Assembly (NCBI RefSeq): GCF_000826645.1
Contig: NZ_JXJP01000003.1
Location: 310,001 to 374,000 of the forward strand
DNA from: Psychroserpens mesophilus
GTDB taxonomy: Bacteria > Bacteroidota > Bacteroidia > Flavobacteriales > Flavobacteriaceae
Direction: 5' to 3'
DNA length: 64,000 nt
Shown: piece after piece, positions 12,201-30,998 of the stretch
Layout of the letters: every line of letters begins with the position of its first letter
How positions within the stretch are numbered: the stretch's first letter is position 1
Translations under genes and position numbers: made by a program
Notes under the pieces: model-generated
Told to the model about the DNA's origin: nothing
The model's database searches: none
Seen by the model: the letters and a program-made list of their open reading frames with translations, nothing else

Positions 12201-13945
12201 AACGTGACTGTCTCAGAAACTGAAGCACCACAGCTTATACTTAACCCAGAATTATCATTTGTAAGTGTAACATTTCCACATAAAACAGTTCCAGTAACAC
12301 TAGCTAACCAATTATTGAACTCAACAGTAGGATCTGTAATCTGATCACACTGTAACGTAACATCAGTTGGCTGGTTCGTCCAGGTTGGACCTTCAAATGA
12401 TATTTTAAAAAGTGTTCCATTATATATATTCACATAGTAAATAAAACCATCTAACGGATTTTGCATCATATGTACTATGCCATCACCAAAATTTATAGGT
12501 GCCAATTCTGATATATCACTTATCCAGTTTAACGTTCCATCAGTAAGCGTTGCTATGTTTATCCAGTTTCTTACGTAATCTGTAAACAGATATTTACCAG
12601 TCATACTACTGCCCATTGCATCACCAGTAATGTACACTCCAGCAATTGCAGTATTTCCTCTAAACTGAATTCCCGTTGTAGGAGAACCTGAAGTACCCAC
12701 TCTAGGATTTGTAGGTGTTGTTCCGTTAAACCAAGGCACACGAGCTTCGTTACTACCTCCATGACGCCAAGCAACTTCTGGTCTGTCGTGCACAAAACGT
12801 CTTAAAGCTGGATTTGAATCATCTACGAAATTTGTTGGTTGTGGACAATTATTTACAAAAGGTACATTTCCTTCATCAGGATTTGTAGTTCCACTATTAT
12901 AATAACCATTATGTTGTGTTAAGCCTTCATATAAAGGCCAACCACCATTCAAACCGGCTTTATCAAAAATATGCAAATCTTCCCAAGTTCCCCAACCTAC
13001 ATCTGCAACCTGAATGATTCCAGGATTTCCATCAGCAGGATTAGTACTACCACTATTGGGTTGAATTGACATTCTGAATGGATGACGTAAACCCATAGCC
13101 CACATTCTAGATTCTGGAGCTCTCGGATTTGAAGCATTATAGTGCGGATTTGAAGGGATTCCATCTCCTGTTGCTGGATCAAGACGCAATACTTTTCCAC
13201 AAAGCGATGTAATCATCTGACTTCTGAATGCGCCTACATTTTCCTCAGGACGCATGATGCCATCGTTGATTGCTTGTTGCCAATACGTTTCACTTGCGCT
13301 TCCTGTGTCTGTTGAAGAATAACTTGCATTATCTCCAGTCGACACCAATAAGGTCCCATCATTTGCAAAAATAACCGTTCCTCCTGCGTGTGACTCATGT
13401 GTTAATGGCACTCCAGTTGATACAGATTCTCCAAGAAGTACAGTTCTGGTATTATAATTTGTCGTTAACGGATTACTTCCAATATTTAATTGATAACGTG
13501 TTAAACGACTTATGGTCGCCTCATAATAATCATTATCATTTGGATCATAACTGGGTGTTCCATAATTCATAAGATGCTCTCGATCAACCATGTAATACAT
13601 GTAAACTAAACCGTTAGTGTCGAAGTTAGGATCTAAGCAAAAACTAGCAAAACCAAAATCTCGCCAATCTCCAACTTCATCAGAAATATCGAGAACAGGC
13701 GTCGTTTGCTTGACATATTGTGTTCCATTCCAATTGGACACATATACATGTCCGCGTTTTTCCCAAACAAACATCTTAGTTCCATCTGAATTGAAAACAA
13801 CACCCATAATGGTATTATAACCATTCTGAACTTCGGAAGCTATATAACCCGTAGGTAATTGAGCGAAAGCATTTGAAATTAGTACTAGATAAAGACTAAC
13901 AGAAAAAAACAGCCTTATATTAAGAATACGATTATAGCAAACCAT
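9278..13945 (-). CDS. Secreted glucose/sorbosone dehydrogenase-like protein with ten 79-residue repeats and T9SS sorting domain
   Basis: From the ATG at 13945 this is a 1555-residue secreted protein. A signal peptide (LFFSVSLYLVLISNAFA-Q) precedes a six-bladed PQQ/sugar-dehydrogenase-type propeller of about 480 residues (LLVSTGDN, GLRHPFRMS, DVGWGTWEDL, GGWPLYEG). These are motifs of the glucose/sorbosone dehydrogenase family, whose known members oxidise sugars with PQQ. One divergent HYR-like module follows, then ten near-identical 79-residue modules, each with four cysteines (ECD, DTCG, GSC, DECNN), one more divergent module and a T9SS type A domain (NDIVIFPNPTDKHIYI ending IKKLIIR). In-frame ATGs at 13993 and 14032 give longer N-termini but a worse signal peptide. 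The repeats probably form a stalk that displays the propeller. Confidence 0.85.
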   Translation of the reverse strand: MVCYNRILNIRLFFSVSLYLVLISNAFAQLPTGYIASEVQNGYNTIMGVVFNSDGTKMFVWEKRGHVYVSNWNGTQYVKQTTPVLDISDEVGDWRDFGFASFCLDPNFDTNGLVYMYYMVDREHLMNYGTPSYDPNDNDYYEATISRLTRYQLNIGSNPLTTNYNTRTVLLGESVSTGVPLTHESHAGGTVIFANDGTLLVSTGDNASYSSTDTGSASETYWQQAINDGIMRPEENVGAFRSQMITSLCGKVLRLDPATGDGIPSNPHYNASNPRAPESRMWAMGLRHPFRMSIQPNSGSTNPADGNPGIIQVADVGWGTWEDLHIFDKAGLNGGWPLYEGLTQHNGYYNSGTTNPDEGNVPFVNNCPQPTNFVDDSNPALRRFVHDRPEVAWRHGGSNEARVPWFNGTTPTNPRVGTSGSPTTGIQFRGNTAIAGVYITGDAMGSSMTGKYLFTDYVRNWINIATLTDGTLNWISDISELAPINFGDGIVHMMQNPLDGFIYYVNIYNGTLFKISFEGPTWTNQPTDVTLQCDQITDPTVEFNNWLASVTGTVLCGNVTLTNDNSGLSISCGASVSETVTFTLADDCGNEITKQATFTIEDNGDPTFNETLPASTTVECDNIPTAETLTASDTCGIATVSFTESTASGSCSGDYTITRTWTATDECNNETIHIQTITVEDNGDPTFNEPLPASTTVECDNIPTAETLTASDTCGIATVSFTESTASGSCSGDYTITRTWTATDECNNETIHIQTITVEDNGDPTFNEPLPASTTVECDNIPTAETLTASDTCGIPTVSFTESTASGSCSGDYTITRTWTATDECNNETIHIQTITVEDNGDPTFNEPLPASTTVECDNIPTAETLTASDTCGIATVSFNESTTSGSCSGDYTITRTWTATDECNNETIHIQTITVEDNGDPTFNETLPASTTVECDAIPTAETLTASDTCGIATVSFTESTASGSCSGDYTIIRTWTATDECNNETIHIQTITVEDNGDPTFNEPLPASTTVECDNIPTAETLTASDTCGMATVSFTESTALGSCAGDYTITRTWTATDECNNETVHIQTITVEDNGDPTFNEPLPASTAVECDAIPTAETLTASDTCGIATVSFTESTALGSCAGDYTITRTWTATDECNNETIHIQTITVEDNGDPTFNEPLPASTTVECDNIPTAETLTASDTCGIATVSFTESTALGSCAGDYTITRTWTATDECNNETIHIQTITVEDNGDPTFNEPLPASTAVECDAIPTAETLTASDTCGTAMVSFNESIASGSCSGDYTITRTWTATDECNNETIHIQTITVEDNGDPTFNEPLPASTTVECDNIPTAETLTASDTCGIATMSFNESTASGSCSGDYTITRTWTATDECNNETIHIQTITVEDNVSPIWNVMPSDMTIMCSPNMQADYEAWLNSFSGTDNCGTPAVIHNAPATVSCPDAIEVIFELTDVCGNTDVATATFNVESTLHVSEVFENDIVIFPNPTDKHIYIKGLVGESQMEVYNIAGQNVFSKMVSNGNRIEFNLESGLYLVRISSDIKSVIKKLIIR
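9758..12127 (-). repeat. Ten tandem 237-bp coding repeats
   Basis: The segment is exactly 10 x 237 bp, in frame within the sugar-dehydrogenase-like gene. Units differ by few substitutions, for example NIPT/AIPT after ECD, ASGSCSG/ALGSCAG, and TES/NES. Units 6, 7 and 8 from the protein N-terminus share the ALGSCAG variant, which suggests recent local duplication. A repeat this regular is prone to assembly collapse. Confidence 0.95.
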
Positions 13946-14116
13946 TAGAAATAGTTTAGATGGGTTGAAACTAATTTTGCTATTAATCAACATAAAGGTA
14001 GCTTGATTATAGGTTGAAAAAAAATAAACCATTCAATAAGGAAAAAAAATCGATGATAGGATTAAAATTGATACTATGCGTAGAGTTTTCTTACAGTAAA
14101 ATCCATGTATAAAAAA

Positions 14117-14352: not shown

Positions 14353-15810
14353 TTATTCCGGAATTAACCACCAAAAAGGTCGCATTTTCGCTTTGTAAAT
14401 AAAGGCATAGTGTAAAGCCAGTTTTAACCAGTGGCCTGCTAAACCTATTTCTCCAAAGGTTTTTCCCAATTGTCTTCCCTGTGTTTTTGGGTACTTTTCA
14501 TAATCTGGCACAATGGGATATGTGGTTATACTTACACCACTACCTTTAGTCATTCCATAGCCAGCGGAAGCGATACATGCAGCTCCCATATTTCCTAAAC
14601 TACCTTTATGATGAAGTGACTCCTTACCCTTTTTAATTGAATCAATGATATTATCGGCTACCAATTTTGCTGTGATCCCTGAAGGCATTCCTGTACGAGG
14701 TGGTGATGGAGAAATATCAGTTCCATTTTTACTTTTTCTTGGTTTTGAAATCGCATGTGGAGGAGCAAAAGCAATACCTGGAGCAAAAATGTTTTTATAA
14801 CTTGGATTTTGATAAGTTTCAGGCCAATCTTGAACAGACCATTTATCATAAGATTTTGTTGTATAATCTGCATCAACAATCATAAATCCTTTAAAAAGCT
14901 TTTCAGTGATATCATTTTCATTTTTATCATAAGCTTTAAAGCCATGACCTGAAAATGCTGGAATGAGCATAGCAAAATCGTAAGTTTCAGTTTTAAACTC
15001 TCCTTCTAAATTTTCATAATGCGCAACTCCATTTTCAATTTTATTGACTCCTGCGCCAAGAATCCAATTAATATCTCTGTCCTCAAAGATCATCTCTACC
15101 ATTTCACTAGACTTCATAGTCAAACTACCATAACTCAATAACATTCCATCCATTCCAAAATCACCTAGTTGATATTCATTAGAAATCCATGTAACTTCAG
15201 CCATATCTCTTACATTATGACGTCGTAATTCTTGCTCAACATTTAGTATGTATTCGAAAGCTGCACCTTGACAAGTCGATTTTGCATGTCCTGTACCAAT
15301 GAGTATTTTAGTCTTTTTACCTTTTTTCATTTCCTGAATTAAGGTATTTAATGCTTCCCAAGCATGATCTGCGTGTGTATAAGTACAAACCGAATAGGTT
15401 TTATTTTCTCCTGGAATTAAACCATCGGTTGCTTCAAAATTGAGTTTTGGACCTGTTGCGTTAATTAAATAATCGTAGGTTATTTTTTCTTTTTGACCTT
15501 TGTGAGCTCCTGCAACATATTCAGCTAAAACATAAGGCTTTTGTTCATCTTTATCTCCTTCTGGATAAAAAGAAACAGCTTTTGCCTGCTTGTAACCTAT
15601 GCCTTTCTTTTTATATAATGGTGCTAATGGAAATAAAATTTTTTCAGATTTCATTCTACCAATTCCAACCCAAATATTAGACGGAATCCATTGGTAGTTA
15701 CTGTTTGGAGAAACCACAACAACGTCATGGTCTTTAGAAAGCTTTCGTCTTAAATGTGACGCAGCTACATGTCCAGATATTCCTGCTCCTAGTATGACGA
15801 CTTTTGACAT
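14353..15810 (-). CDS. Sulfide:quinone oxidoreductase-like FAD flavoprotein
   Basis: This is a 485-residue flavoprotein of the disulfide oxidoreductase superfamily. The N-terminal VVILGAGISGHVAA is the FAD-binding Rossmann motif, and NATGPKLNFE and a second ATG-like segment follow. Three cysteines occupy SQR-like positions: Cys142 (SVCTYTHADH), Cys180 (GHAKSTCQGAAFEY) and Cys412 (GAACIASAGYG). SQR enzymes oxidise sulfide to sulfane sulfur through a cysteine pair and pass electrons to quinone. The C-terminal KMRPFWWLIP is amphipathic and could anchor it to the membrane. It differs clearly from the second SQR at 23995, so it may use another sulfur substrate. A Crp/Fnr-type dyad lies 118 bp upstream. 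Confidence 0.8.
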   Translation of the reverse strand: MSKVVILGAGISGHVAASHLRRKLSKDHDVVVVSPNSNYQWIPSNIWVGIGRMKSEKILFPLAPLYKKKGIGYKQAKAVSFYPEGDKDEQKPYVLAEYVAGAHKGQKEKITYDYLINATGPKLNFEATDGLIPGENKTYSVCTYTHADHAWEALNTLIQEMKKGKKTKILIGTGHAKSTCQGAAFEYILNVEQELRRHNVRDMAEVTWISNEYQLGDFGMDGMLLSYGSLTMKSSEMVEMIFEDRDINWILGAGVNKIENGVAHYENLEGEFKTETYDFAMLIPAFSGHGFKAYDKNENDITEKLFKGFMIVDADYTTKSYDKWSVQDWPETYQNPSYKNIFAPGIAFAPPHAISKPRKSKNGTDISPSPPRTGMPSGITAKLVADNIIDSIKKGKESLHHKGSLGNMGAACIASAGYGMTKGSGVSITTYPIVPDYEKYPKTQGRQLGKTFGEIGLAGHWLKLALHYAFIYKAKMRPFWWLIPE

Positions 15811-15897: not shown

Positions 15898-15941
15898 TAA
15901 AGATCACTCTTTAATTATTACTACACAGTGACAATTGTTAC
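15898..15941 (-). promoter_or_regulatory. Crp/Fnr-type dyad and -7 element for the SQR-like gene
   Basis: Dyad GTGAC-AATT-GTTAC lies at 15928-15941. On the minus strand the octamer GATCTTTA (15905-15898) ends 36.5 nt from the dyad centre, the same spacing as at the other sites. The -7 match is the weakest of the set (A and TTT kept). Confidence 0.65.
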
Positions 15942-15957: not shown

Positions 15958-17571
15958 TTAAAGTTTAATAATTTTCTTTTCAATGATATTTGAATTGTTC
16001 TTAAAAACTAAAAAATATTCTCCTGAAGCGATTTGATTTAAATCCATTGATATTTTTTGTAATCCTATAGTTGCATCTACATCTATTGACTTTATCTTTT
16101 TACCCAATACATCATAAACCTCCAAACTACTTTTTTCTGTATTAGGAATGAAGACTTCAACTAAATAGTCACCTTTAGAAGGGTTTGGAAATACTTTTAA
16201 ATTGTATATGTTATTCACATTAAGTTCCACATCGTCAATATTTAAGGATGCTTTATTAACAAACACTTTAAAAGCCAAATTACTAGCACTACTTTGAGTT
16301 CCTGTATTTATAAAGAAAATATTTTCCTGTGTACTTTCAATACCTCCAAAAATATAACCAATATGAGTAACACCTTCCTGTAAGCTATTAAGATCTAAGA
16401 TGTCATAAGATTGATAATTAGCAATATTATTTAATGGAATAAACTCGGCTCCTGAACCTAAAAGTGTAGGCATTTCAATATCTAAACTACTTTCTACCAT
16501 AGAACCATCATTAAATCTAGACACTTTGCTAATCGTTTTTACAAATGGTACGTTATTATCCTGAATAAGATTATTATTAGCATCGAGCTTATATTGACTC
16601 ATTCCGCCAAAAAACAGCGTGTGCATAACATTATTAAAACTATCATATATAGGAACTTTTGCACTGTGATACTGACTTAAATATTGATTAAATGTATTGT
16701 TAACTGTGTATCCGGAAGCTGTAACATCGACACTGTTTAACCATGGTAAATTTGCAGAATGCTGAAAAACACCACTAAACATGGTAAAACCTGGTGTTCC
16801 ATCTGGAAAAATTTGTGGCGTCATGTTATAATCTCTTCGATGCAAATTATTAGTATCATTTTGAGCTGAATAATTTAAGATTGATAGGTTTGAACCATCA
16901 TCACTTATTTCAAAAGTTCGTATTTCATCTGTATAGTTCTGAATAAATCCTGGTCCGTTGTTAGGACCCATCGGATTATATCGTCCCTCAAAATACTGTC
17001 CGCCACATAAATAAAACACATCATTTAATCTACCTAACTGACCTCCAGTTACGGCTAAATTACTGTTGGTTATTTGTCTAAAATAGGGTGTTATACTTGT
17101 ATTATTTATAACAGCATTTGCTAAACCATCAACATCAATTGCTGTTAGTTTATCATAAGTAATATGATCGTTTTGTGTAGCGCTAAAGCCATAACCACCA
17201 ATAATATACAAGGTATTTCCTCTTTGAATAAACTCCTGATTTGTAGATTGTAATTGTTCAAATAATGATGCTGATAATACATTTAACGATGTGCTCCATG
17301 TTTGATTAGAAGCAGGATCAACAACAAAAACATTTTTATTATTATCGTTTTCAAGAAATGAAGCAAAAGGCTGTCTTCTATGTAGACCATCTATTCTACC
17401 TCCTAGTATGATCCATTTTCCATCTGTAGTCTTACCAAAAGAAAAAGAATGAACGCTCGGAGCATTTGCAATCACTAGTGGTTCTATTTGTACTGTAAAC
17501 TGCTCTTGTGAGACACCTGGACTTGCTGCAATAATTGACAATAGAAAAATGAGTACTCTTTTAATTTTCAT
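15958..17571 (-). CDS. Secreted kelch-like beta-propeller protein with T9SS sorting domain
   Basis: This is a 537-residue exported protein. A signal peptide (VLIFLLSIIAASPGVSQ) is followed by kelch-like repeats with paired glycines: WIILGGRIDG, LYIIGGYGF, VFYLCGGQYF, TLFFGGMSQY and IGYIFGGIE. A T9SS type A sorting domain closes it (LKVFPNPSKGDYLVEV, ending IIEKKIIKL). Kelch propellers bind proteins or glycans; no catalytic residues are evident, so its function is unknown. The unexpected feature is its promoter: a Crp/Fnr-type dyad sits 54 bp upstream in the same geometry as the sulfide-oxidation genes, which implies co-regulation with them. Confidence 0.8.
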   Translation of the reverse strand: MKIKRVLIFLLSIIAASPGVSQEQFTVQIEPLVIANAPSVHSFSFGKTTDGKWIILGGRIDGLHRRQPFASFLENDNNKNVFVVDPASNQTWSTSLNVLSASLFEQLQSTNQEFIQRGNTLYIIGGYGFSATQNDHITYDKLTAIDVDGLANAVINNTSITPYFRQITNSNLAVTGGQLGRLNDVFYLCGGQYFEGRYNPMGPNNGPGFIQNYTDEIRTFEISDDGSNLSILNYSAQNDTNNLHRRDYNMTPQIFPDGTPGFTMFSGVFQHSANLPWLNSVDVTASGYTVNNTFNQYLSQYHSAKVPIYDSFNNVMHTLFFGGMSQYKLDANNNLIQDNNVPFVKTISKVSRFNDGSMVESSLDIEMPTLLGSGAEFIPLNNIANYQSYDILDLNSLQEGVTHIGYIFGGIESTQENIFFINTGTQSSASNLAFKVFVNKASLNIDDVELNVNNIYNLKVFPNPSKGDYLVEVFIPNTEKSSLEVYDVLGKKIKSIDVDATIGLQKISMDLNQIASGEYFLVFKNNSNIIEKKIIKL

Positions 17572-17594: not shown

Positions 17595-17638
17595 CAAATT
17601 TCTGAAAATTAAAAGTCTATATAAGTAACCTATGTTAC
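17595..17638 (-). promoter_or_regulatory. Crp/Fnr-type dyad and -7 element for the kelch-like gene
   Basis: Dyad GTAAC-CTAT-GTTAC lies at 17625-17638. Minus-strand octamer GAAATTTG (17602-17595) matches TAnnTTTG at five of six positions and ends 36.5 nt from the dyad centre. This implies a transcription start near 17590 and a dyad centred at about -41.5. Confidence 0.75.
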
Positions 17639-17696: not shown

Positions 17697-18734
17697 TTAA
17701 TAACTTGTATCATCTAATTTAACTTTACCATGGAATGTTTTATATAAAAACAAGAAATAACCGGCTAAAAGTGGTGCACCAATAAGAACAATCGTTAACA
17801 TAATACCCAGTGATTTCTGAGAAGATGCTGCGTTATAAATCGTAACACTATATTCTGGATCTATTGTTGAAGGCAAAAGCACAGGATACAACTGAAAAGC
17901 AACGAGCATTAGTAAAAATGCCATAGTTAAGGATGAAAACAATAAAGCATTTGAATATTTCTTCTTGGATACTAATCTTGGCACATTGGCAACTGCCAGA
18001 AATGCCAGTAAAGGCAACACGAAGAACAATGGGTTTTCCTTAAACTTATCAGTCACTCCGGGAATAAAAACTAAAGTATATAGAGATGTCACTGCAAAAC
18101 TTGTGATAAAAAAGACCATCCCTTTTTTCAATAGAAATGTTAATCTAGCATGCAATCGTCCTTCGGTTTTTAGCAATAAAAAAATAGCTCCTTGAGTCAT
18201 AAAAATTGAGAGTGTCGTTAACCCGACTATAATAGCATAAGGACTCAAAAATGAAAAGAAAATACCACCTTTATAAGAGAAGTTTTCATGAATTTCAAAA
18301 CCTTGTAAAATATTTCCTAAAACAACACCTAGCAAAAATGCTATTAAAACATTTGAAATAAAATAAATAATATCCCAGGATTTTCTCCACCATTTCATTT
18401 CTTCAGCACTTCTAAATTTTATGGCAGAAGAGCGCAAAACCAATAACACTAAAAATAACATAAATGGTATGTACATAGCAGACAACATAGTCGCGTACAT
18501 TACAGGAAATCCTGCAAATAGTGCTCCTCCTCCAATAATCAGCCAAACCTGATTAGCATCCCATAAAGGTCCAATGGCATTAATTGCAATACGTCTGCTC
18601 AAATCTTTCTTAAAAAACAGATGCCATGCTCCTGCTCCGTAATCAAATCCTTCCAGAATTGCATATCCTGAAAATAATAACCCAACTACTAAATACCAGA
18701 GGGTTGGATAATCGATACCTAAAAACGTTTCCAT
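17697..18734 (-). CDS. cydB: Cytochrome bd-type quinol oxidase subunit II
   Basis: This is a 345-residue polytopic membrane protein of the CydB family, with an N-terminal DYPTLWYLVVGLLFSGYAI-like helix (GIDYPTLWYLVVGLLFSGYA), LEGFDYGAGAWHLFF, and GPLWDANQVWLIIGGGALFAG. CydB pairs with CydA to form the copper-free bd oxidase, which reduces oxygen to water using quinol. It begins 9 bp after cydA and forms an operon with it. The bd oxidase is known in other bacteria to keep working in sulfide, which blocks haem-copper oxidases. That fits its position inside a sulfide-oxidation island. Confidence 0.95.
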   Translation of the reverse strand: METFLGIDYPTLWYLVVGLLFSGYAILEGFDYGAGAWHLFFKKDLSRRIAINAIGPLWDANQVWLIIGGGALFAGFPVMYATMLSAMYIPFMLFLVLLVLRSSAIKFRSAEEMKWWRKSWDIIYFISNVLIAFLLGVVLGNILQGFEIHENFSYKGGIFFSFLSPYAIIVGLTTLSIFMTQGAIFLLLKTEGRLHARLTFLLKKGMVFFITSFAVTSLYTLVFIPGVTDKFKENPLFFVLPLLAFLAVANVPRLVSKKKYSNALLFSSLTMAFLLMLVAFQLYPVLLPSTIDPEYSVTIYNAASSQKSLGIMLTIVLIGAPLLAGYFLFLYKTFHGKVKLDDTSY

Positions 18735-18743
18735 ATGCTACTA

Positions 18744-20099
18744 TTATGTGTATTTTAAAAATTCTTCAGGGTTTTCTGCTTCGTTATAGGGTCCATGTTT
18801 TATTTTCTTATTTAAAGAATATAAAAATAAAAGTAACAATATGGAATAGACCACTGTAAAAAGAACTAACGAAAAAACGATTTGATTGGCTGAGACTTCT
18901 TGAGAAAACCCTTGACTAGTTCTTAAGTGTCCGTAAACAATCCATGGTTGTCTCCCCATTTCGGCTGCAAACCATCCTACTTGGTTAGCTATTTGTGGTA
19001 ATATTACTGAAAAGGTAAAAATCTTTAATAACCATTTTTTATCGAATAGTGTACCTTTCCACCATAAAAAACTAGCATACAAGGTTAAAGCTATCAAAAA
19101 CATTCCTATAGAAATCATAATATGGTAAAACTGAAAAACAGCATTAACTTGTCCTGGTCTATCTTCTTCGGAAAAAGCATTCAAACCTGTAATCGGTGCT
19201 TGAAAATCTTGATGTACTAAAAAAGATAATCCACCAGGCACACTAATTCCTGTAACTTCTTGCGTCTCATCATCTACCCAACCGAATACGTATAAATCAG
19301 CTGGTGCGGACTTATCATAATGACCTTCCATCGCTGCCAGTTTTGCAGGTTGGTTTTCAGCAACACCATCAGCAGAACTGTGACCAGAGACCAATTGTAA
19401 TAATGATACAATGGTAGCAACAGACAAAGCGATTTTGAACGCTTTTTTAGAAATTTCAATATATCTGCCTTTTAATAAATAATAAGCATGCACACTTAAA
19501 ATCATGAATGCTCCTGCCAAAAAAGCACCTTGCCAAACATGAATAATTCTATCGACGCTTGATGGATTAAACACCATAGCCCAAAAATCGGTTACTTCTG
19601 CCCTTGCATTTACTCCTTCTCCAACAATATGGTAACCCGCTGGAGTTTGTTGCCAGCTATTCGCCACCACAATCCAAACTGCAGAAAACATAGATCCCAA
19701 AAACACTCCAATTGCAGATATAAAATGAACTCTAGGTGACACACGATTCCATCCAAAAATTAAAATTCCCAGAAATGTGCTTTCTAAACCAAATGCGAAT
19801 AACCCTTCGGCGGCTAATGCACTTCCAAAAATATCTCCAACGTATTTTGAATAAACTGCCCAATTGGTTCCGAATTCAAACTCCATGATAATTCCGGTAG
19901 CGACACCTATTCCAAATGTTATGGCAAATATTTTCAACCAAAAACGCGTAAGAATTTCATACTGTTTATTACCTGTTTTTAGGTATAAGCCTTCCATTAT
20001 CACCATAATCAATCCAATCCCGATGCTCAATGGTGGATAGATATAGTGAAAAGCTATCGTGAAAGCAAACTGTATTCTTGCTAAAATTTCAACATCCAT
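18744..20099 (-). CDS. cydA: Cytochrome bd-type quinol oxidase subunit I
   Basis: This is a 451-residue membrane protein of the CydA family. The N-terminal ARIQFAFTIAFHYIYPPLS contains the haem-ligand histidine, and the GRQPWIVYGHLRTSQG motif is the quinol-oxidase signature. The length indicates a short Q-loop. CydA carries haems b558, b595 and d and the quinol site. Only 54 bp separate it from the peroxiredoxin stop upstream, and that gap is mostly a terminator hairpin. cydAB therefore either reads through from the peroxiredoxin promoter or uses a weak promoter there. No Crp/Fnr-type dyad of its own is visible. Confidence 0.96.
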   Translation of the reverse strand: MDVEILARIQFAFTIAFHYIYPPLSIGIGLIMVIMEGLYLKTGNKQYEILTRFWLKIFAITFGIGVATGIIMEFEFGTNWAVYSKYVGDIFGSALAAEGLFAFGLESTFLGILIFGWNRVSPRVHFISAIGVFLGSMFSAVWIVVANSWQQTPAGYHIVGEGVNARAEVTDFWAMVFNPSSVDRIIHVWQGAFLAGAFMILSVHAYYLLKGRYIEISKKAFKIALSVATIVSLLQLVSGHSSADGVAENQPAKLAAMEGHYDKSAPADLYVFGWVDDETQEVTGISVPGGLSFLVHQDFQAPITGLNAFSEEDRPGQVNAVFQFYHIMISIGMFLIALTLYASFLWWKGTLFDKKWLLKIFTFSVILPQIANQVGWFAAEMGRQPWIVYGHLRTSQGFSQEVSANQIVFSLVLFTVVYSILLLLFLYSLNKKIKHGPYNEAENPEEFLKYT

Positions 20100-20116
20100 A
20101 ATTTCACATTCAAAAA

Positions 20117-20145
20117 AAATACGCTTTAGTAACTAAAGCGTATTT
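20117..20145 (-). terminator. Intrinsic terminator between peroxiredoxin gene and cydA
   Basis: A perfect 13-bp stem (20117-20129 with 20133-20145) has a 3-nt loop, followed on the minus strand by a run of eight T. It lies 9 bp beyond the peroxiredoxin stop and 18 bp before the cydA start. Confidence 0.8.
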
Positions 20146-20153
20146 AAAATAAT

Positions 20154-20879
20154 TTATTTTTTTAAAATTTCGTTTAAAACTAAATCTTTGTCTAAAGGTT
20201 TAGTACAAAAGAACCAGTCTTCACATTTTAAATCATCGGTTCCACTCATTCGTTCTTCAGCGACTCCACATGATCCAGCTGGCGACACAATAACATCGTC
20301 ACCAGGATTCCAATCTGCCGGAGTTGCAACGTTGAATTTATCTGAGGTTTGCATAGCTATTAAAGCTCTATATAACTCATCAAAATTTCGTCCTAAACTT
20401 AAAGGATAATAAATAAGTGCACGTACAATGCCTTCAGGATCAACAAAGAATACAGCTCTAACAGCTTGTGTTTTACTTTCTCCTGGCTGAATCATACCAT
20501 ATTTCTTAGCTACGTTCATCGAAATATCTTCAATTAAAGGAAACTTAACTTCTATGTTTTCCATACCATTAAACTTGATTTTATCCTTAATAGTTCTTAA
20601 CCAAGCTATATGGCTATACAAACCATCGATTGATAATCCGATGAGATTACAATTCGCTTTCTTAAATTTTTCTTCTAAATGTGCAAACGTCATAAACTCT
20701 GAGGTACACACAGGTGTAAAATCTGCTGGATGGCTAAATAGAATAGACCATTCGCCTTTATAATCTGAAGGGAAGTTAATTTCACCTTGTGTCGTTGTTG
20801 CCTTAAATTCTGGAGCCTTGTCACCAATTCGTGGCATTGTAAATACGTCTTGCTCTTGTGTTGTTTCTGTTGTGTTCAT
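20154..20879 (-). CDS. Peroxiredoxin of the Prx6/1-Cys type with extra C-terminal cysteines
   Basis: This is a 241-residue thiol peroxidase. The peroxidatic Cys58 lies in HPADFTPVCTSE, the PxxxTxxC motif of the family, and the chain is longer than 2-Cys AhpC, as in Prx6 proteins. Near the C-terminus are Cys203 (GSCGVAEERM), Cys218 (LKCEDW) and Cys224 (FFCTKP). This pattern resembles archaeal 1-Cys-fold peroxiredoxins that resolve with C-terminal cysteines. It reduces hydrogen peroxide and organic peroxides, and persulfides are plausible additional substrates. A Crp/Fnr-type dyad lies 55 bp upstream, placing it in the sulfur regulon. Confidence 0.9.
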   Translation of the reverse strand: MNTTETTQEQDVFTMPRIGDKAPEFKATTTQGEINFPSDYKGEWSILFSHPADFTPVCTSEFMTFAHLEEKFKKANCNLIGLSIDGLYSHIAWLRTIKDKIKFNGMENIEVKFPLIEDISMNVAKKYGMIQPGESKTQAVRAVFFVDPEGIVRALIYYPLSLGRNFDELYRALIAMQTSDKFNVATPADWNPGDDVIVSPAGSCGVAEERMSGTDDLKCEDWFFCTKPLDKDLVLNEILKK

Positions 20880-20903: not shown

Positions 20904-20947
20904 TAAAATTAATCTTCATTGGTTTCAAACTCTGTAACAAAAGTCAC
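20904..20947 (-). promoter_or_regulatory. Crp/Fnr-type dyad and -7 element for the peroxiredoxin gene
   Basis: Dyad GTAAC-AAAA-GTCAC lies at 20934-20947. Minus-strand octamer TAATTTTA (20911-20904) matches the -7 consensus at five of six positions and ends 36.5 nt from the dyad centre. The predicted leader is about 20 nt. Confidence 0.75.
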
Positions 20948-21044: not shown

Positions 21045-21088
21045 GTGACTAAAGTCACTTTTAAAATGAATAAAGACAAGTATATTTG
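21045..21088 (+). promoter_or_regulatory. Crp/Fnr-type dyad and perfect -7 element for the copper-uptake pair
   Basis: Dyad GTGAC-TAAA-GTCAC lies at 21045-21058, and with its flanks reads TGTGA-N6-TCAC, close to the enterobacterial Crp site. The octamer TATATTTG (21081-21088) is a perfect TAnnTTTG and ends 36.5 nt from the dyad centre. The ATG at 21094 is only 5 nt further, implying a nearly leaderless mRNA. Confidence 0.8.
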
Positions 21089-21093
21089 TAACC

Positions 21094-21471
21094 ATGAAAA
21101 TATGCACTTATATTTTTGCAATATCATTTATCGTACTTCTTTTTATAAACAGTACTAAAGTCACATTGTCCTATGTGTATTATGAGGTAGACCCTATTGG
21201 TTTTATCGAAGCTTTATGTGAGAATAAAGACAAGCCTGAGCTCCAATGTAATGGAAAATGTCACTTAAAAAAGGTAGCTCAGTCACAAGATAAAGAACAA
21301 AACACACCTGAAAGTATTATTGATTTCAAGGAACTTGTATTATATCTACATCCTGAAATTACCTTTAAATTACCTGATAATATCTATCAAAAAAGACCAC
21401 AATTTTTATCCTATCTTAACCTGTATTCTTTTAAAAATTCTAACGACTGTTTTCACCCTCCGAGGGTATAA
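21094..21471 (+). CDS. Small membrane-anchored CNGKC-motif protein upstream of a copper receptor
   Basis: This is a 125-residue protein with one N-terminal hydrophobic segment (residues 4-20, TYIFAISFIVLLFIN) and a periplasmic remainder. The conserved-looking core is FIEALCENKDKPELQCNGKC followed by HLKK: Cys42, Cys52, Cys56 and His57, a plausible metal site. Similar short proteins are common next to TonB-dependent receptors in Bacteroidota, but I know of no characterised function. Another Cys-His pair (DCFHPP) lies near the C-terminus. It is followed by an OprC-like receptor after 66 bp, so a role in copper binding or transfer is likely. No alternative start is in frame, so the ATG at 21094 is secure. 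Confidence 0.75.
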   Translation: MKICTYIFAISFIVLLFINSTKVTLSYVYYEVDPIGFIEALCENKDKPELQCNGKCHLKKVAQSQDKEQNTPESIIDFKELVLYLHPEITFKLPDNIYQKRPQFLSYLNLYSFKNSNDCFHPPRV

Positions 21472-21537: not shown

Positions 21538-23637
21538 ATGAAAACATTATATGGTATGCTTCTATGCGTACTAATTACAAATGTGTCTTTTAGTCAAGAA
21601 ACGACTGAAACCAAAAAAGACACCCTGAAAACAGTAACAATACTCGACGAAGTGATTGTTACTGGAAACAAAAAAACGGATCCAGTAATGACTTCCGTAA
21701 AAAACAATTATGTTGAAAAAATTGTACAACCTAAAAATGTCGCAGACCTATTTAATTCGATTAATGGATTCTCGGTGATCAAACGAGGAAATTATGCCAT
21801 TGATCCATCATTTAGAGCGTCTCAATATGAGCAGCTGAATATTCAATATGATGGAGGCACCAAAGCTATGCATGCTTGTCCGAATAGAATGGACCCAATA
21901 ACTACGCATATAATTCCTGAAGACATTGCCAGAATTGAAATTATTAAAGGCCCTTATACGGTTAGATATGGTGCTACTTTTAGTGGCGTAATTAATATGG
22001 TTACTCAAAAACCTGATTACGAAGATTATGGCATTCATGGAAAGGTGTCTGCTGGATATGAAAGTAACGGAAATTCAATAGTAAACTTAGCACAACTACA
22101 GTATATAAAAGAGACGTTTGATATAGTAGCTATCGCTGGTTACAGAGATTTTGGAAATTATAAAGATGGTAATGAAGTTGAAATACCTTCATCATTTAGA
22201 AGTACAGATTATGGTATTAAAATAGGCTATAATTTATCTGAAGATCAACGAATTCAGGCACATTGGCGACAATCATTTGGTCGTGATGTTTTACATGCTG
22301 CCTTGCCAATGGATACTGAATATGATAATAGTAGTATCATTTCATTAGATTACAAATTAAATAACATTGGTAGAATTGTTAAATCATTCACTGCAAAAAC
22401 ATATTATAGTTATGTAGACCATTTAATGTCTAATAGCAATAGGCCTTCCTTTATGATGATGGAAGCCTCTTCTGCTGTAGATGCAACAACCATTGGAGGA
22501 AAACTAGAATTAAACTGGAAGCCATTTTCAAAACTAAATATGTTTACCGGACTGGACGCTATTCATATTTCACGAGACGGAAGTAGAACACGATTAGTTA
22601 AAGTTATGAATGGAAATGTTCTACCAACGCCAATGACATTTAATGATAAGGTTTGGCAAAATTCTTATATAACTGATTTAGGATTATTTACAGAAGCAAA
22701 ATACAATTTAAGCTCTAGTACCATATTTACTGCTGGAATTAGATATGATCAAGTGGTTTCAGACATTCAAGATCCTGAAGATGACTTTGCTGCTATGTAT
22801 GATTTAAAAAAACGTACTGAACATAATATTAGCGGAACTGTTTCTATTAAAAAATCAGTATCTGATAATTTTATTATTGAAGCTGCATATGGTCGAGGTG
22901 TTCGCTCAGCGAATATGATAGAACGCTTTATAAACCATTTTAATGCTGGTCAAGACCCATATGAATACATAGGAAATCCTAATTTAAAAGCTGAAGTTAA
23001 TAATCAGTTTGAAATTGGGTTTAATGGAAATAAAAATTTCAAAAATGGTATTAACGCCTTCAAATATGGAGCGTCCTTCTACTACTCATTGTTCGAAAAT
23101 TATATTGTTGGTATTATAGATCCTGCGATTAGCCGTAAATTTAATCCTATGGCACAACCAACCAATGTAAAGGTGTTTCAAAATTTAGATGAAGCTTATA
23201 AAACAGGCTTTGAGGCCATGTTTCAAGTCGATTTTTTGAAAGATTATTACTATAAAACAGAAGTCTCTTATGTGTACGCAAAAAACAAAGATTTAGCTGA
23301 GTCCTTACCGTTAACTCCTCCTTTAACGACAAGACTTACAATTGGATTTGACAAGAATAACTATTGGGCAAATTTACAATACAATGTCGTATCGAAACAA
23401 GATGATATATCAAGAAGTTTTGGAGAAATAGAAACGGATGGCTATCAAACCTTAGATTTCCGTTTAGGATTAACGCCTATCAAGAACATCACATTAGGAT
23501 TAGCTGTCATTAATATATTTGACGAAGCTTATAATAACCACTTAAACTTTTCTTTTACTAATCAAGAGAACTTTGATCGAACACCTATTACAGAACCAGG
23601 TCGAAATTTTTCTGTTTTTTTACACTATAAATTTTAA
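21538..23637 (+). CDS. TonB-dependent copper receptor (OprC/NosA-like)
   Basis: This is a 699-residue outer-membrane receptor. A signal peptide (residues 1-20) is followed by a plug domain and a 22-strand-type barrel ending in FSVFLHYKF. The plug carries MHACPNRMDP, so Cys114 and Met118 form CxxxM, and a barrel loop carries DHLM with His295 and Met297. In Pseudomonas aeruginosa OprC the copper site is CxxxM plus HxM about 180 residues apart; here the distance is 181. This supports copper binding rather than a siderophore or glycan receptor. No TonB box, SusC extension or SusD partner is visible. It shares the Crp/Fnr-type promoter at 21045-21088 with the preceding gene. Confidence 0.85.
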   Translation: MKTLYGMLLCVLITNVSFSQETTETKKDTLKTVTILDEVIVTGNKKTDPVMTSVKNNYVEKIVQPKNVADLFNSINGFSVIKRGNYAIDPSFRASQYEQLNIQYDGGTKAMHACPNRMDPITTHIIPEDIARIEIIKGPYTVRYGATFSGVINMVTQKPDYEDYGIHGKVSAGYESNGNSIVNLAQLQYIKETFDIVAIAGYRDFGNYKDGNEVEIPSSFRSTDYGIKIGYNLSEDQRIQAHWRQSFGRDVLHAALPMDTEYDNSSIISLDYKLNNIGRIVKSFTAKTYYSYVDHLMSNSNRPSFMMMEASSAVDATTIGGKLELNWKPFSKLNMFTGLDAIHISRDGSRTRLVKVMNGNVLPTPMTFNDKVWQNSYITDLGLFTEAKYNLSSSTIFTAGIRYDQVVSDIQDPEDDFAAMYDLKKRTEHNISGTVSIKKSVSDNFIIEAAYGRGVRSANMIERFINHFNAGQDPYEYIGNPNLKAEVNNQFEIGFNGNKNFKNGINAFKYGASFYYSLFENYIVGIIDPAISRKFNPMAQPTNVKVFQNLDEAYKTGFEAMFQVDFLKDYYYKTEVSYVYAKNKDLAESLPLTPPLTTRLTIGFDKNNYWANLQYNVVSKQDDISRSFGEIETDGYQTLDFRLGLTPIKNITLGLAVINIFDEAYNNHLNFSFTNQENFDRTPITEPGRNFSVFLHYKF

Positions 23638-23994: not shown

Positions 23995-25257
23995 TTAAAC
24001 TTCTTTCCCTTTCATCATTTTGTTCCAATACAGATAAGGCAGTCCGTATTTCTTTAGCATCCATAATCTCCAATGTTCTTTTTCACTGTTAAAAACAAGC
24101 ATTTGTTTCAATTTGGGGTCTGGTATAAAATTATTATCATAATCAAATTCTGCTAATATCATTTTTCCATAACCAGTAACTAAAGGGCATGAAGAATATC
24201 CGTTATAAGATTTATTTCCTTTTTTATTATGTGCTATTAATTGTCTAATATTATCTGAAACAATAGGAACTTGCTTACGTATTGCAGCTCCAGTTTTGGC
24301 GGTAGGCAAAGCCGCAACATCTCCCAAACCAAAAATATTAGAATACTTATTATGTTGCAGTGTATGCTTATCTACATCTAACCAACCAGCATCATTAACC
24401 AATGGTGATTCTTTAACAAATTTAGGAGCTGTTTGTGGAGGCGCTAAATGAAGCATATCAAATGGCATTTCAATAATTGATTCACCAGACATAATCTCCC
24501 TTAATTCATTATCTTCATTGATGACACATTTATTTTCACCAGTTCCAACTCCTTTAAACGTTACAATTTGATTCTCCCCATCAATTTTTATAGGTGCATA
24601 AAATGGTTTAAAGTGAATACCATAACGGCTAATTACTTTCATCAAGTTTTCACGAATCTCTTTAACACCAAAAATTACAGATCCAGGCGTTGCAAAAACG
24701 ACATTAGATTTATGTTTTAATCCGTTTTTCTTAAAATAATCGGCTGCTAAATAGGCTATTTTTTGAGGAGCTCCACCACATTTGATAGGCGTTGTAGGTT
24801 GTGTAAATACAGCATTTCCGCCTTTAAAATTTTTAAGAACTTCCCACGTATGTTTTGGGTCTGTGTAATTACTACAAACAACCCCTTTATCTAGCGCTTC
24901 TGTTAAACCCTCGATTAAGGACGTGTCCATAACTAATCCTGGAGAGACTATAAGATAGTCATAAGTGATTGCACCATTTTCTTTTGTTGAAACACTATTA
25001 TTTTCTGGATTAAAACTTATTGCGTAATCTTTAATCCAATCGACTCCTTTAGGCATAACGGAAGCCATGGATTTTTTTGTTTTATCGAAATCAAAAGTTC
25101 CTGCTCCTACAAGAGTCCATGCAGGCTGATAGTAATGCCAATCGGCTGGTTCAATCAAGCCAATATCAAGACTTGAATCTTTATTCAATAGATTGGCCGA
25201 GGTCATTATTCCTCCAGTACCTCCACCTATCACTAAAATTTGGTAATGTGATTTCAT
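23995..25257 (-). CDS. sqr: Type II sulfide:quinone oxidoreductase (SQOR-like)
   Basis: This is a 420-residue flavoprotein that closely resembles mitochondrial SQOR: YQILVIGGGTGGIMTSANLL (FAD site), NAVFTQPTTPIKCGGAPQKI (redox Cys160), MLHLAPPQTAP, GWLDVDKHTLQH, FGLGDVAALPTAKT and YSSCPLVTGYGKMILAEFDY (redox Cys357). The enzyme oxidises hydrogen sulfide at a Cys-Cys trisulfide, transfers sulfane sulfur to a thiol acceptor and reduces quinone at the inner membrane. The C-terminal WMLKKYGLPYLYWNKMMKG is an amphipathic membrane anchor. A Crp/Fnr-type dyad lies 77 bp upstream. Together with the CstB-like enzyme at 27999 it would form the first half of a sulfide-to-sulfite route. Confidence 0.93.
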   Translation of the reverse strand: MKSHYQILVIGGGTGGIMTSANLLNKDSSLDIGLIEPADWHYYQPAWTLVGAGTFDFDKTKKSMASVMPKGVDWIKDYAISFNPENNSVSTKENGAITYDYLIVSPGLVMDTSLIEGLTEALDKGVVCSNYTDPKHTWEVLKNFKGGNAVFTQPTTPIKCGGAPQKIAYLAADYFKKNGLKHKSNVVFATPGSVIFGVKEIRENLMKVISRYGIHFKPFYAPIKIDGENQIVTFKGVGTGENKCVINEDNELREIMSGESIIEMPFDMLHLAPPQTAPKFVKESPLVNDAGWLDVDKHTLQHNKYSNIFGLGDVAALPTAKTGAAIRKQVPIVSDNIRQLIAHNKKGNKSYNGYSSCPLVTGYGKMILAEFDYDNNFIPDPKLKQMLVFNSEKEHWRLWMLKKYGLPYLYWNKMMKGKEV

Positions 25258-25303: not shown

Positions 25304-25347
25304 TAAAAGTAAAAGCCTTTTATTGAATATAATGTAACTATTGTTAC
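25304..25347 (-). promoter_or_regulatory. Crp/Fnr-type dyad and -7 element for sqr
   Basis: Dyad GTAAC-TATT-GTTAC lies at 25334-25347 (extended TGTAAC/GTTACA). Minus-strand octamer TACTTTTA (25311-25304) ends 36.5 nt from its centre. Confidence 0.78.
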
Positions 25348-27507: not shown

Positions 27508-27846
27508 TTAATAATTTAATATGCCTCCTTTTAAATCATAGATTTCTTTAAAGTCCATGTTCGCTAACTTGTTAGCAGTTTGTCGGCTTCGACTTCCACT
27601 TCTACAGTAAACATAAACGGGCTTATCCTTTTTAAGCTTATTAAACTCAACATTAAATCTTCCAGAGAAAAAATCGATATTTTTAGCCCCTTTTATGTGA
27701 CCCGATTTAAATTCATTTGGTGTTCTCACATCAATTAATTGAACATTTTTACCTTCAACCTGACTTTGAAAATCATTAGGAGATAAAACTGTGATACAAT
27801 CATTTTGTGGAGATTTTGTACCGAAAATTGCTGATAAAAATGACAT
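27508..27846 (-). CDS. Single-domain rhodanese sulfurtransferase
   Basis: This is a 112-residue protein with one rhodanese domain: VQLIDVRTPNEFKSGHIKGA and the active-site loop VYVYCRSGSRSRQTA, Cys81 being the persulfide-forming residue. There is no strong signal peptide; the N-terminus MSFLSAIFGTK is short and amphipathic. It transfers sulfane sulfur between persulfide donors and thiol acceptors. It is the first gene of a five-gene operon (rhodanese, cytochrome c-DUF3365, trxA, methyltransferase, DUF2892), with a Crp/Fnr-type dyad 77 bp upstream. Confidence 0.92.
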   Translation of the reverse strand: MSFLSAIFGTKSPQNDCITVLSPNDFQSQVEGKNVQLIDVRTPNEFKSGHIKGAKNIDFFSGRFNVEFNKLKKDKPVYVYCRSGSRSRQTANKLANMDFKEIYDLKGGILNY

Positions 27847-27892: not shown

Positions 27893-27936
27893 TAAAAATA
27901 ATCGTTCTAAGAGTAAAATTTGGTAACCTTTGTTAC
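27893..27936 (-). promoter_or_regulatory. Crp/Fnr-type dyad and -7 element for the rhodanese operon
   Basis: Dyad GTAAC-CTTT-GTTAC lies at 27923-27936. Minus-strand octamer TATTTTTA (27900-27893) ends 36.5 nt from the centre. The dyad directly abuts the terminator of the upstream gene. Confidence 0.78.
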
Positions 27937-27998: not shown

Positions 27999-29414
27999 TT
28001 AATTAACTGTTGAAGGGCAAACATAGGCCGTTCTTGGTATATTTGTGTTTTTAATAGCTGAAAAACCACCAGCAATATCAATCAAATTATGAATCCCTCT
28101 ACTTTTCAATATGGATGCAGCAATTACAGACCGATAACCACCAGCACAATGAACATAAAATGTTTGGTCATCTGGGAATTCACTTAAATAATTATTAAGA
28201 TAATCTAAGGGTGTGTTTTTAGCACCTTCAATGTGTTCTGCTTTATATTCACCTTCTCTTCTAACATCAAAAACTACATCCTTATGCTCTGAATAGGTCT
28301 TAGCAAATTCTTCAGAAGCTATAGAAGTAAGTGTATCGTACTCCATTCCTGAAGTTTTCCAATTTTCAAATCCTCCTTCTAGATAGCCTAAAACATTGTC
28401 AAATCCAACTCGTGATAATCGAGTAATTGCTTCTTCTAACCTGTTTTCTGGAGATACTAATAAAATTGGCTGATTCACATCTACAATTAAAGCACCAACC
28501 CAAGGTGCAAAATCTCCATTGATTCCTATAAAAATAGATCTCGGAATATGTCCTTTGATATATTCAGATTGATGACGTATATCTAAAATTATGGCATCAG
28601 TTTCATTTGCTGCTGCTTCAAACGCTTTAGGGTTTAATGGTTTATGAGATTTTGACATTACTTTATCAAAACTTTCGTAGCCTTTAATATTCATCATAAC
28701 GTTTTGAGGAAAATATCCAGGTGGTTCAGTTAAACCATCTAACAATTCTTCAATAAATTCTTCTTTAGTCATGTCTGCTCTCAACGCATAATTTACTTCT
28801 TTCTGATGGCCGAGAGTATCTGTAGTTTCCTTGCTCATGTTTTTTCCACATGCAGATCCAGCACCATGATTTGGATAGATGATTAAGTCGTCACTTAGAG
28901 GCATAATTTTATCTCTTAATGAGTGGTACAATAAAGCTGCTAATTTATCTTGGGTAAGTTCAGCTACAACTTTTTGGGCTAAATCAGGACGACCAACATC
29001 ACCAATAAAAAGTGTATCACCAGTTGCAATACCATGCTCTTTTCCGTTTTCATCTATCAACAAATACGTTGTACTTTCCATGGTATGACCAGGCGTATGA
29101 ATCACTTTAACCTTATAATTGCCTACTTCAAATACCTGACCGTCTTCAGCAACTATAGCTTCGTACCCAGGTTTTGCTGTAGGTCCATAAACAATATTAG
29201 CACCTGTTTTTTCTTTTAATTCTAAATGACCAGACACAAAATCGGCATGAAAATGAGTTTCAAAAACATATTTTATTTTGGCATCATCAAGTTTTGCTCT
29301 TTTGATATATGGTTCTACTTCTCGAAGCGGATCTATGATTGCTGCTTCTCCATTGTTTTCTATATAATATGCTGCGTGTGCTAAACAGCCTGTATAAATT
29401 TGTTCTACTTTCAT
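27999..29414 (-). CDS. CstB-like persulfide dioxygenase-sulfurtransferase (MBL + two rhodanese domains)
   Basis: This is a 471-residue protein. Residues 1-210 are an ETHE1-like metallo-beta-lactamase domain with iron-binding THFHADFVSGH (His54, His56, Asp58), TPGHTMES (His110), TGDTLF (Asp133) and PNHGAGSACGK (His183, Cys189). Residues 270-353 form a rhodanese fold without the active cysteine (ILLVSPENR). Residues 371-460 form an active rhodanese with VHCAGGYRS (Cys423). The same three-part order is known from Staphylococcus aureus CstB, which oxidises persulfides to sulfite and thiosulfate. With the SQR enzymes it completes sulfide oxidation. A dyad lies 67 bp upstream and TauE-like export follows on the other side. 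Confidence 0.9.
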   Translation of the reverse strand: MKVEQIYTGCLAHAAYYIENNGEAAIIDPLREVEPYIKRAKLDDAKIKYVFETHFHADFVSGHLELKEKTGANIVYGPTAKPGYEAIVAEDGQVFEVGNYKVKVIHTPGHTMESTTYLLIDENGKEHGIATGDTLFIGDVGRPDLAQKVVAELTQDKLAALLYHSLRDKIMPLSDDLIIYPNHGAGSACGKNMSKETTDTLGHQKEVNYALRADMTKEEFIEELLDGLTEPPGYFPQNVMMNIKGYESFDKVMSKSHKPLNPKAFEAAANETDAIILDIRHQSEYIKGHIPRSIFIGINGDFAPWVGALIVDVNQPILLVSPENRLEEAITRLSRVGFDNVLGYLEGGFENWKTSGMEYDTLTSIASEEFAKTYSEHKDVVFDVRREGEYKAEHIEGAKNTPLDYLNNYLSEFPDDQTFYVHCAGGYRSVIAASILKSRGIHNLIDIAGGFSAIKNTNIPRTAYVCPSTVN

Positions 29415-29450: not shown

Positions 29451-29494
29451 TAAAATTACTACAAAAAAACAGGTTGTGGTGTAACAAAGGTTAC
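29451..29494 (-). promoter_or_regulatory. Crp/Fnr-type dyad and -7 element for the CstB-like gene
   Basis: Dyad GTAAC-AAAG-GTTAC lies at 29481-29494 (extended TGTAAC/GTTACA). Minus-strand octamer TAATTTTA (29458-29451) ends 36.5 nt from the centre. Confidence 0.78.
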
Positions 29495-30318: not shown

Positions 30319-30362
30319 CAAATCTAAATCGAAATTGAATGGTATTTGGTAACAAAAGTTAC
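30319..30362 (-). promoter_or_regulatory. Crp/Fnr-type dyad and perfect -7 element for the TauE-like gene
   Basis: Dyad GTAAC-AAAA-GTTAC lies at 30349-30362, starting 3 bp beyond the regulator gene stop. Minus-strand octamer TAGATTTG (30326-30319) is a perfect TAnnTTTG ending 36.5 nt from the centre. It fixes the start of the TauE-like gene at 30301. Confidence 0.8.
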
Positions 30363-30365
30363 CTT

Positions 30366-30998
30366 TTACAGATCTATAACCTTAATATTATTTCTGTGAA
30401 GTTCTATTTTACCATTGATGGACAACTTTTTTAGTAATCGTGAAATTACAACACGTGAGGTATGTAAATCTTGTGCTATTTCTTGATGAGTAACATGAAT
30501 AACTTCATTATGATTGACCATAGCTTTATCTTTCAGATATTTGAACAAACGCTCATCCATTTTTAAAAACGCAATGGTATCAATAGCATGAAGCAATTCC
30601 GACATACGATCATGATAACTTTGTAGAATAAATTTTTGCCAGCTTTTATACTTCCCTAGCCATTCTTCCATTTTTTGAACAGGAATCATTATCAGTTTTG
30701 TATCCGTTTCAGCAACAGCTCTTATTTCACTTTTTGATTGCCCCAAACAACACGATAGTGTCATTGCACAAGTATCCCCTCGTTCAATAAAATATAGTAT
30801 AAGTTCATCACCATTGGTGTCTTCACGAAGAATTTTAATAGCACCACTTATTAAAAGTGGCATAGATCTTATGTAATCACCTATTTCTATGAGATGATGA
30901 CCCTCTGGCACATCTTTATACGTACCAACACTATTAATTTCTTGAAGTAATTCTTCCTCAAATAAGTAACCGTAGTTTGTTTTTAATTCTTCTAACAT
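30366..30998 (-). CDS. Crp/Fnr-family transcriptional regulator of the sulfur island
   Basis: This is a 210-residue regulator with a cyclic-nucleotide-binding-like domain (about 20-125), a dimerisation helix (about 125-150) and a C-terminal winged HTH (HVTHQEIAQDLHTSRVVISRLLKKL). Three cysteines cluster in DTCAMTLSCCLGQSK: Cys77, Cys83 and Cys84. They do not match the N-terminal Fe-S ligands of Fnr, but could sense persulfide or redox state, or bind a cofactor. A conserved recognition helix in this family favours TGT(A/G)A-type half-sites, matching the eight dyads nearby. No clear dyad precedes its own gene, so it may be made constitutively. Control of the dyads is inferred from position and family. 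Confidence 0.88.
   Translation of the reverse strand: MLEELKTNYGYLFEEELLQEINSVGTYKDVPEGHHLIEIGDYIRSMPLLISGAIKILREDTNGDELILYFIERGDTCAMTLSCCLGQSKSEIRAVAETDTKLIMIPVQKMEEWLGKYKSWQKFILQSYHDRMSELLHAIDTIAFLKMDERLFKYLKDKAMVNHNEVIHVTHQEIAQDLHTSRVVISRLLKKLSINGKIELHRNNIKVIDL

Follow-up and report, generated by a model that had tools for sequence, protein, structure and literature searches.

Why should a TonB-dependent receptor resembling the copper receptor OprC lie among genes for sulfide oxidation, and does it answer to the same promoter signal as those genes? The window analyzed here is a 64,000-nucleotide stretch of the Psychroserpens mesophilus genome (contig NZ_JXJP01000003.1, positions 310,001 to 374,000), and coordinates below refer to it unless another contig is named. 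Our analysis favors, at somewhat better than even confidence, the reading that this receptor captures copper and is a direct member of a sulfide or reactive-sulfur regulon, in which it would offset the copper lost to sulfide. The receptor and the two halves of its predicted copper site are located as follows.

21538-23637, + strand: OprC-like TonB-dependent receptor, 699 aa, with Pfam plug and barrel
21877-21891, + strand: CPNRM codons, C114 to M118, plug half of the predicted copper site, aligned with OprC C143/M147
22420-22428, + strand: HLM codons, H295 to M297, barrel half of the predicted copper site, aligned with OprC H323/M325

An earlier note on this DNA had proposed an OprC-like receptor whose CxxxM and HxM motifs are spaced as in OprC, and both proposals held up. 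The whole protein contains a single CxxxM (C114/M118, in HACPNRMDP) and a single HxM (H295/M297, in DHLM), which lie 181 residues apart, against 180 for the copper ligands C143, M147, H323, and M325 seen in the OprC crystal structure (PMC8610252). Comparison with Pseudomonas aeruginosa OprC by phmmer (E 3.5e-40; about 23% identity) placed the four residues in register with these ligands, at an offset of +29 and then +28, and the ACPNRMD block is identical in the two proteins. All four residues are invariant across 49 homologues with identity down to 31%, which argues that the motif pair is not a product of chance; M258, which aligns with Met286 of the OprC methionine track, is likewise invariant. 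The AlphaFold2 model of the receptor was good (pLDDT 82, pTM 0.83), and the first 28 matches in a fold search with it were OprC chains (Z 39.7, rmsd 2.4 Å over 601 residues), making OprC the closest solved structure, with ZnuD and haem receptors lower in the fold lists. Homology and fold together suggest that the four ligand residues would converge on one metal. The best NCBIfam match was TIGR01778 (TonB-dependent copper receptor, an equivalog), whose score of 255.5 bits falls short of the curated cutoff of 472 and keeps the protein out of the proteobacterial equivalog; because of this shortfall, it is best named a divergent, Bacteroidota OprC-like receptor. These features argue strongly for an OprC-like identity that includes the copper-site residues.

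The receptor is not the first gene behind its promoter, which comprises the following elements.

21045-21058, + strand: regulon dyad GTGACTAAAGTCAC of the receptor operon, centered at 21051.5; one of eight exact sites in the genome
21081-21088, + strand: -7 element TATATTTG of the receptor operon, 36 nt from the dyad start
21094-21471, + strand: gene for a 125-aa partner protein (CNGKC), preceding the receptor in 79 of 80 related loci

The dyad and -7 element that the earlier note had assigned to the receptor are indeed present, in the order GTGACTAAAGTCAC, 22 nt, TATATTTG, but they stand before the 125-aa open reading frame and not directly before the receptor. The two genes are probably co-transcribed, given the 66-nt gap between them and their shared gene order across loci. 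The 36-nt spacing from the dyad start to the -7 element is common to the sulfide-gene promoters and the related loci, and the dyad is centered about 42 nt upstream of the expected transcription start, the position from which Crp/Fnr proteins act as class II activators. Assignment of the 21045 dyad solely to the divergent prx-cydAB genes was rejected, both because those genes have their own dyad and -7 element (20904-20947) and because the 21045 dyad is followed, toward the receptor, by a -7 element at the usual spacing. Only 4-5 nt separate that -7 element from the start codon of the CNGKC gene (21081-21096), and most related loci that have a good site show the same arrangement; this proximity suggests that the transcript is probably leaderless, a feature conserved between genera. 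The 125-aa protein itself carries a hydrophobic helix at its N terminus, invariant cysteines at C42 and in C52-x-G-K-C56 (CNGKC), and a C-terminal PP motif. It had no match in Pfam even at an E value of 10 and none in NCBIfam, and its predicted model was poor (pTM 0.36).

The signal before the receptor operon recurs across a sulfide island. Within the window, GTNAC-N4-GTNAC was seen 8 times against 0.6 expected, and all eight sites lie within 15.9-30.4 kb, each upstream of a sulfide-island, prx-cydAB, or receptor-operon gene. The remaining promoters and the neighboring genes are listed here.

15898-15941, - strand: regulon promoter with one mismatch, second SQR-like gene (14353-15810)
17595-17638, - strand: regulon promoter with one mismatch, secreted Kelch-like protein (15958-17571)
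17697-20879, - strand: peroxiredoxin and cytochrome bd (cydA, cydB) genes, regulon neighbors
20904-20947, - strand: prx-cydAB regulon promoter (GTGACTTTTGTTAC, N22, TAATTTTA), divergent from the receptor operon; exact genome site
25304-25347, - strand: regulon promoter of the SQR-like gene 23995-25257, so called from an NCBIfam match below cutoff
27893-27936, - strand: regulon promoter of the rhodanese-like gene 27508-27846; exact genome site
29451-29494, - strand: regulon promoter of the persulfide dioxygenase-like gene 27999-29414 (metallo-beta-lactamase and rhodanese)
30319-30362, - strand: regulon promoter of the TauE-like gene; exact genome site

A search of the whole 3.68-Mb genome with the full pattern, GTRAC-N4-GTYAC-N22-TANNTTTR, returned 8 exact sites against 0.04 expected from base composition, a count that is partly circular because the pattern had been derived from the island promoters beforehand, so that other genomes provide the independent test. 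Six of the eight sites lie in the sulfide island, before the prx-cydAB, receptor-operon, SQR-like, rhodanese, persulfide dioxygenase-like, and TauE genes, and the other two precede a ferredoxin-NADP reductase-like gene and a TolC/RND operon. Allowing up to one mismatch added, in the island, the second SQR-like gene and the Kelch-like secreted protein gene, along with two sites elsewhere in the genome whose status as regulon promoters is not established; a reversed control pattern gave 1 match genome-wide at the same tolerance. Only the combination of dyad, N22, and TANNTTTR is specific: the 14-bp dyad alone produced no more genome-wide matches than its reversed control, and lone dyads outside the island therefore constitute no evidence. 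For the TauE-like frame, the listed TTG start (30355) overlaps the regulon dyad, and the true start is more likely the ATG at 30301 (MDIQLILGY).

Independent evidence came from 80 named loci, nearly all from Flavobacteriaceae, with flanks of up to 10 kb. In many of them, the neighbors of the receptor include SQR, persulfide dioxygenase, rhodanese, prx, or cydAB genes, an arrangement found in Psychroserpens, Algibacter, Winogradskyella, Maribacter, Nonlabens, Kordia, Dokdonia, and other genera. The receptor operon's own promoter carries a perfect site in 22 of 79 loci, a site with at most one mismatch in 38, and one with at most two in 49; loci whose only perfect dyad belongs to the divergent gene, as happens nearby in some relatives (Winogradskyella and others), were counted apart. 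At least three mismatches occur in about 30 of the 79, indicating that the wiring has been lost or altered in some lineages. A wider scan found sites with at most two mismatches in 56 of 78 loci, where dinucleotide shuffles gave 0.1; a few of these 56 are sites of the divergent gene. Allomuricauda/Flagellimonas and Zobellia keep the site though their receptor no longer lies beside most sulfide genes, which argues that it serves the receptor itself. The receptor-operon dyad in Allomuricauda/Flagellimonas is shared with a divergent small lipoprotein gene (about 145 aa, with the motif MAIHDEVMPKM), and in several strains a -7 element is present on both sides of it. Across 146 relatives, the receptor occurs in 20, SQR_b in 20, and both in 8, where 2.7 would be expected (hypergeometric p 0.001; 0.004 when our own genome is left out; shared ancestry ignored in both values); because only 8 of the 20 receptor-bearing relatives have SQR_b, the association is not obligatory. 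The membership in a sulfide regulon that the earlier note had claimed at the promoter level thus finds backing in the genome-wide site statistics and in promoter conservation in many genera, and we regard this part of the argument as strong.

The presumed activator is encoded on the same island.

30366-30998, - strand: Crp/Fnr-family protein, presumed activator; C77, C83, C84, and the recognition helix invariant in 21 orthologues

This conserved protein is the likely activator of the regulon and is expected to bind the dyad; that C77, C83, and C84 sense persulfide is a guess. No receptor-carrying genome was found to keep the site while lacking the regulator, a comparison that is uninformative because a Crp match was found in all 45 such genomes searched. 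It is unlikely, in our judgment, that the Crp-family protein senses a broader respiratory or redox state (low oxygen, nitric oxide, or blocked haem-copper oxidases) and not sulfide as such, with the sulfide genes, cytochrome bd, and the copper receptor as joint outputs of one response. The breadth of the regulon, which holds cydAB, prx, the TolC/RND operon, and the ferredoxin-NADP reductase-like gene, would suit such a response, as would the reaction of related copper receptors to respiratory poisons (PMC12914433) or anaerobiosis (PMC8610252). However, sulfur-oxidation genes lie behind most of the perfect island sites, relatives repeatedly have sites before SQR, persulfide dioxygenase, rhodanese, and TauE genes, and the three cysteines of the regulator are invariant.

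The half-sites themselves raise a further alternative. Receptor sites strongly favor GTGAC half-sites and sulfide-gene sites favor GTAAC, a bias that could mean that the receptor dyad is read by another Crp/Fnr protein and that the receptor is a neighbor, not a member, of the sulfide regulon. We consider this improbable, since the division is not strict. In our own genome, the promoters of prx and of one SQR-like gene combine the two half-sites; relatives have full GTGAC dyads in front of persulfide dioxygenase (Maribacter, Kriegella), SQR (an Allomuricauda-group strain), and prx (Flavobacterium petrolei) genes; and in two strains the receptor operon itself stands behind GTAAC dyads. The presence of GTGAC dyads before sulfide genes implies that one regulator can read both site types. 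Both types also share the identical 36-nt spacing, and the genome has one close homologue of the island Crp protein, its other Crp-like proteins being merely 25-27% identical. A single regulator probably reads both GTGAC and GTAAC sites.

Under the favored reading of a direct regulon member, the island Crp/Fnr-family protein would respond to sulfide or sulfane sulfur by activating the receptor operon from a site centered about 42 nt upstream of the transcription start. Genes for SQR, persulfide dioxygenase, rhodanese, TauE, and cytochrome bd, which contains no copper, would be activated along with it. The receptor would then capture ionic copper at the C114/M118-H295/M297 site and pass it to the periplasm, where the small, membrane-anchored, Cys-rich partner made from the same promoter may accept or chaperone the metal. 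The likeliest purpose would be to offset the soluble copper lost to sulfide, so that the haem-copper oxidases (aa3, cbb3) could still be supplied. Ligand residues, fold match, gene order, and the architecture and conservation of the promoter can be read from the sequence; we infer the binding of the dyad by the island Crp protein, sulfide as the signal, the transport of copper, and the physiological purpose.

Which enzymes would receive this copper is narrowed by a second receptor in the genome. Elsewhere, a nos cluster (NosZ-like, NosL-like, NosD, and ABC genes; within 70000-84500 and 84000-97000 of contig C13) ends in another OprC-like receptor with CTDKM and HIM motifs. It has its own CNGKC-like gene upstream, so that genes of this kind regularly accompany OprC-like receptors in these bacteria. 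No sulfide-regulon dyad was found in the stretch around this paralogue, and the island receptor (21538-23637) does not have the NosA-type placement with nos genes. The earlier note had named haem-copper oxidases or nitrous oxide reductase as beneficiaries; because the nos cluster carries its own OprC-like receptor, nitrous oxide reductase is probably not the client of the island receptor, which more likely serves oxidases or general copper supply. The genome contains two genes for haem-copper oxidases, which were read as aa3-type and cbb3-type, and the pattern search found no perfect regulon site beside them. The copper-free bd-type oxidase escapes the inhibition that sulfide exerts on haem-copper oxidases (PMC10968556), and the pairing of the receptor with cydAB fits this difference.

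Several known systems resemble the present one in part. P. aeruginosa OprC and its P. stutzeri orthologue NosA share the fold, the four ligands, and part of the methionine track, and are reported to be copper-repressed and expressed anaerobically (PMC8610252); the island receptor differs from them in its low identity, its score far below the TIGR01778 cutoff, the CNGKC gene in front, and the Crp-type sulfide-regulon site. Bizionia argentinensis BZARG_1494 (G2EC70) is an OprC-like receptor of the Flavobacteriaceae with CxxxM-HxM, so that the type is already reported in this family, but in the accessible part of that report it is listed with copper-homeostasis genes near CcoG and NosL, and sulfide is not mentioned (PMC11213822). 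The CrtA family likewise comprises copper TonB-dependent receptors tied to haem-copper oxidases, with HCN repressing crtA in P. aeruginosa; in contrast, it forms a separate sequence cluster, imports chelated Cu(II), and is reported to be distinct from OprC (PMC12914433). The suggestion that a link between copper uptake and sulfide sensing would be new did not survive, as sulfide transcriptionally induces oprC in Acinetobacter baumannii together with cydAB and sulfide-oxidation genes (PMC7315123). The persulfide sensors there are FisR and BigR, and the accessible portion of that paper describes no dedicated oprC site, whereas the receptor here shares the sulfide-gene site. That the imported copper serves sulfide chemistry and not oxidases, through periplasmic copper that binds or helps oxidize sulfide or through recovery of copper-thiol complexes, is highly improbable: the A. 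baumannii induction came with raised copper chaperones CusF and CopZ, which its authors took as a sign of more bioavailable copper (PMC7315123), but no copper-dependent sulfur enzyme occurs among the perfect-site genes, and OprC imports free ionic copper (PMC8610252).

Our literature search, mostly of open-access papers, returned no description of the present Crp-type sulfide regulon, and PMC7315123 was the only directly relevant paper. What appears new is the conserved and apparently direct membership of the receptor operon, at the promoter level, in a Crp-type sulfide regulon, together with two OprC-like receptors in separate settings within one genome and the Cys-rich partner. We tentatively extend this to the Flavobacteriaceae, in which a dedicated Crp-family reactive-sulfur sensor may directly drive copper uptake by way of an OprC-like receptor with its new Cys-rich partner, apart from the nos-located receptor, as a conserved program that treats sulfide as impending copper starvation. 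If so, sulfide-exposed bacteria would handle copper shortage within the sulfide program itself, which could explain the induction of oprC by sulfide in Acinetobacter. Sulfide, the supply of copper, and haem-copper respiration would also be connected, in common marine bacteria, in a way that is open to direct testing, and the results point to an uncharacterized family of Cys-rich proteins that travels with OprC-like receptors.

Further observations concern other genes of the genome. The ferredoxin-NADP reductase-like gene and a ferredoxin gene are preceded by the perfect regulon promoter GTGACTTTTGTCAC (contig C1:168479-168522). The TolC/RND efflux operon has tandem regulon dyads here (contig C6:115722-115756) and a perfect site in many related genera, and the pump seems to belong to the conserved part of the sulfide regulon. 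Dyads alone, with the -7 element unchecked, lie near a second persulfide dioxygenase-like gene with YeeE-like neighbors (contig C8:5524) and near a third SQR-like gene, which is accompanied by a DsrC/TusE-like gene (contig C71:489876). Within the window, positions 9278-14032 (- strand) encode a secreted protein of 1584 aa whose N-terminal part resembles a sugar dehydrogenase and is followed by many near-identical Cys-containing repeats and a C-terminal sorting-like tail.
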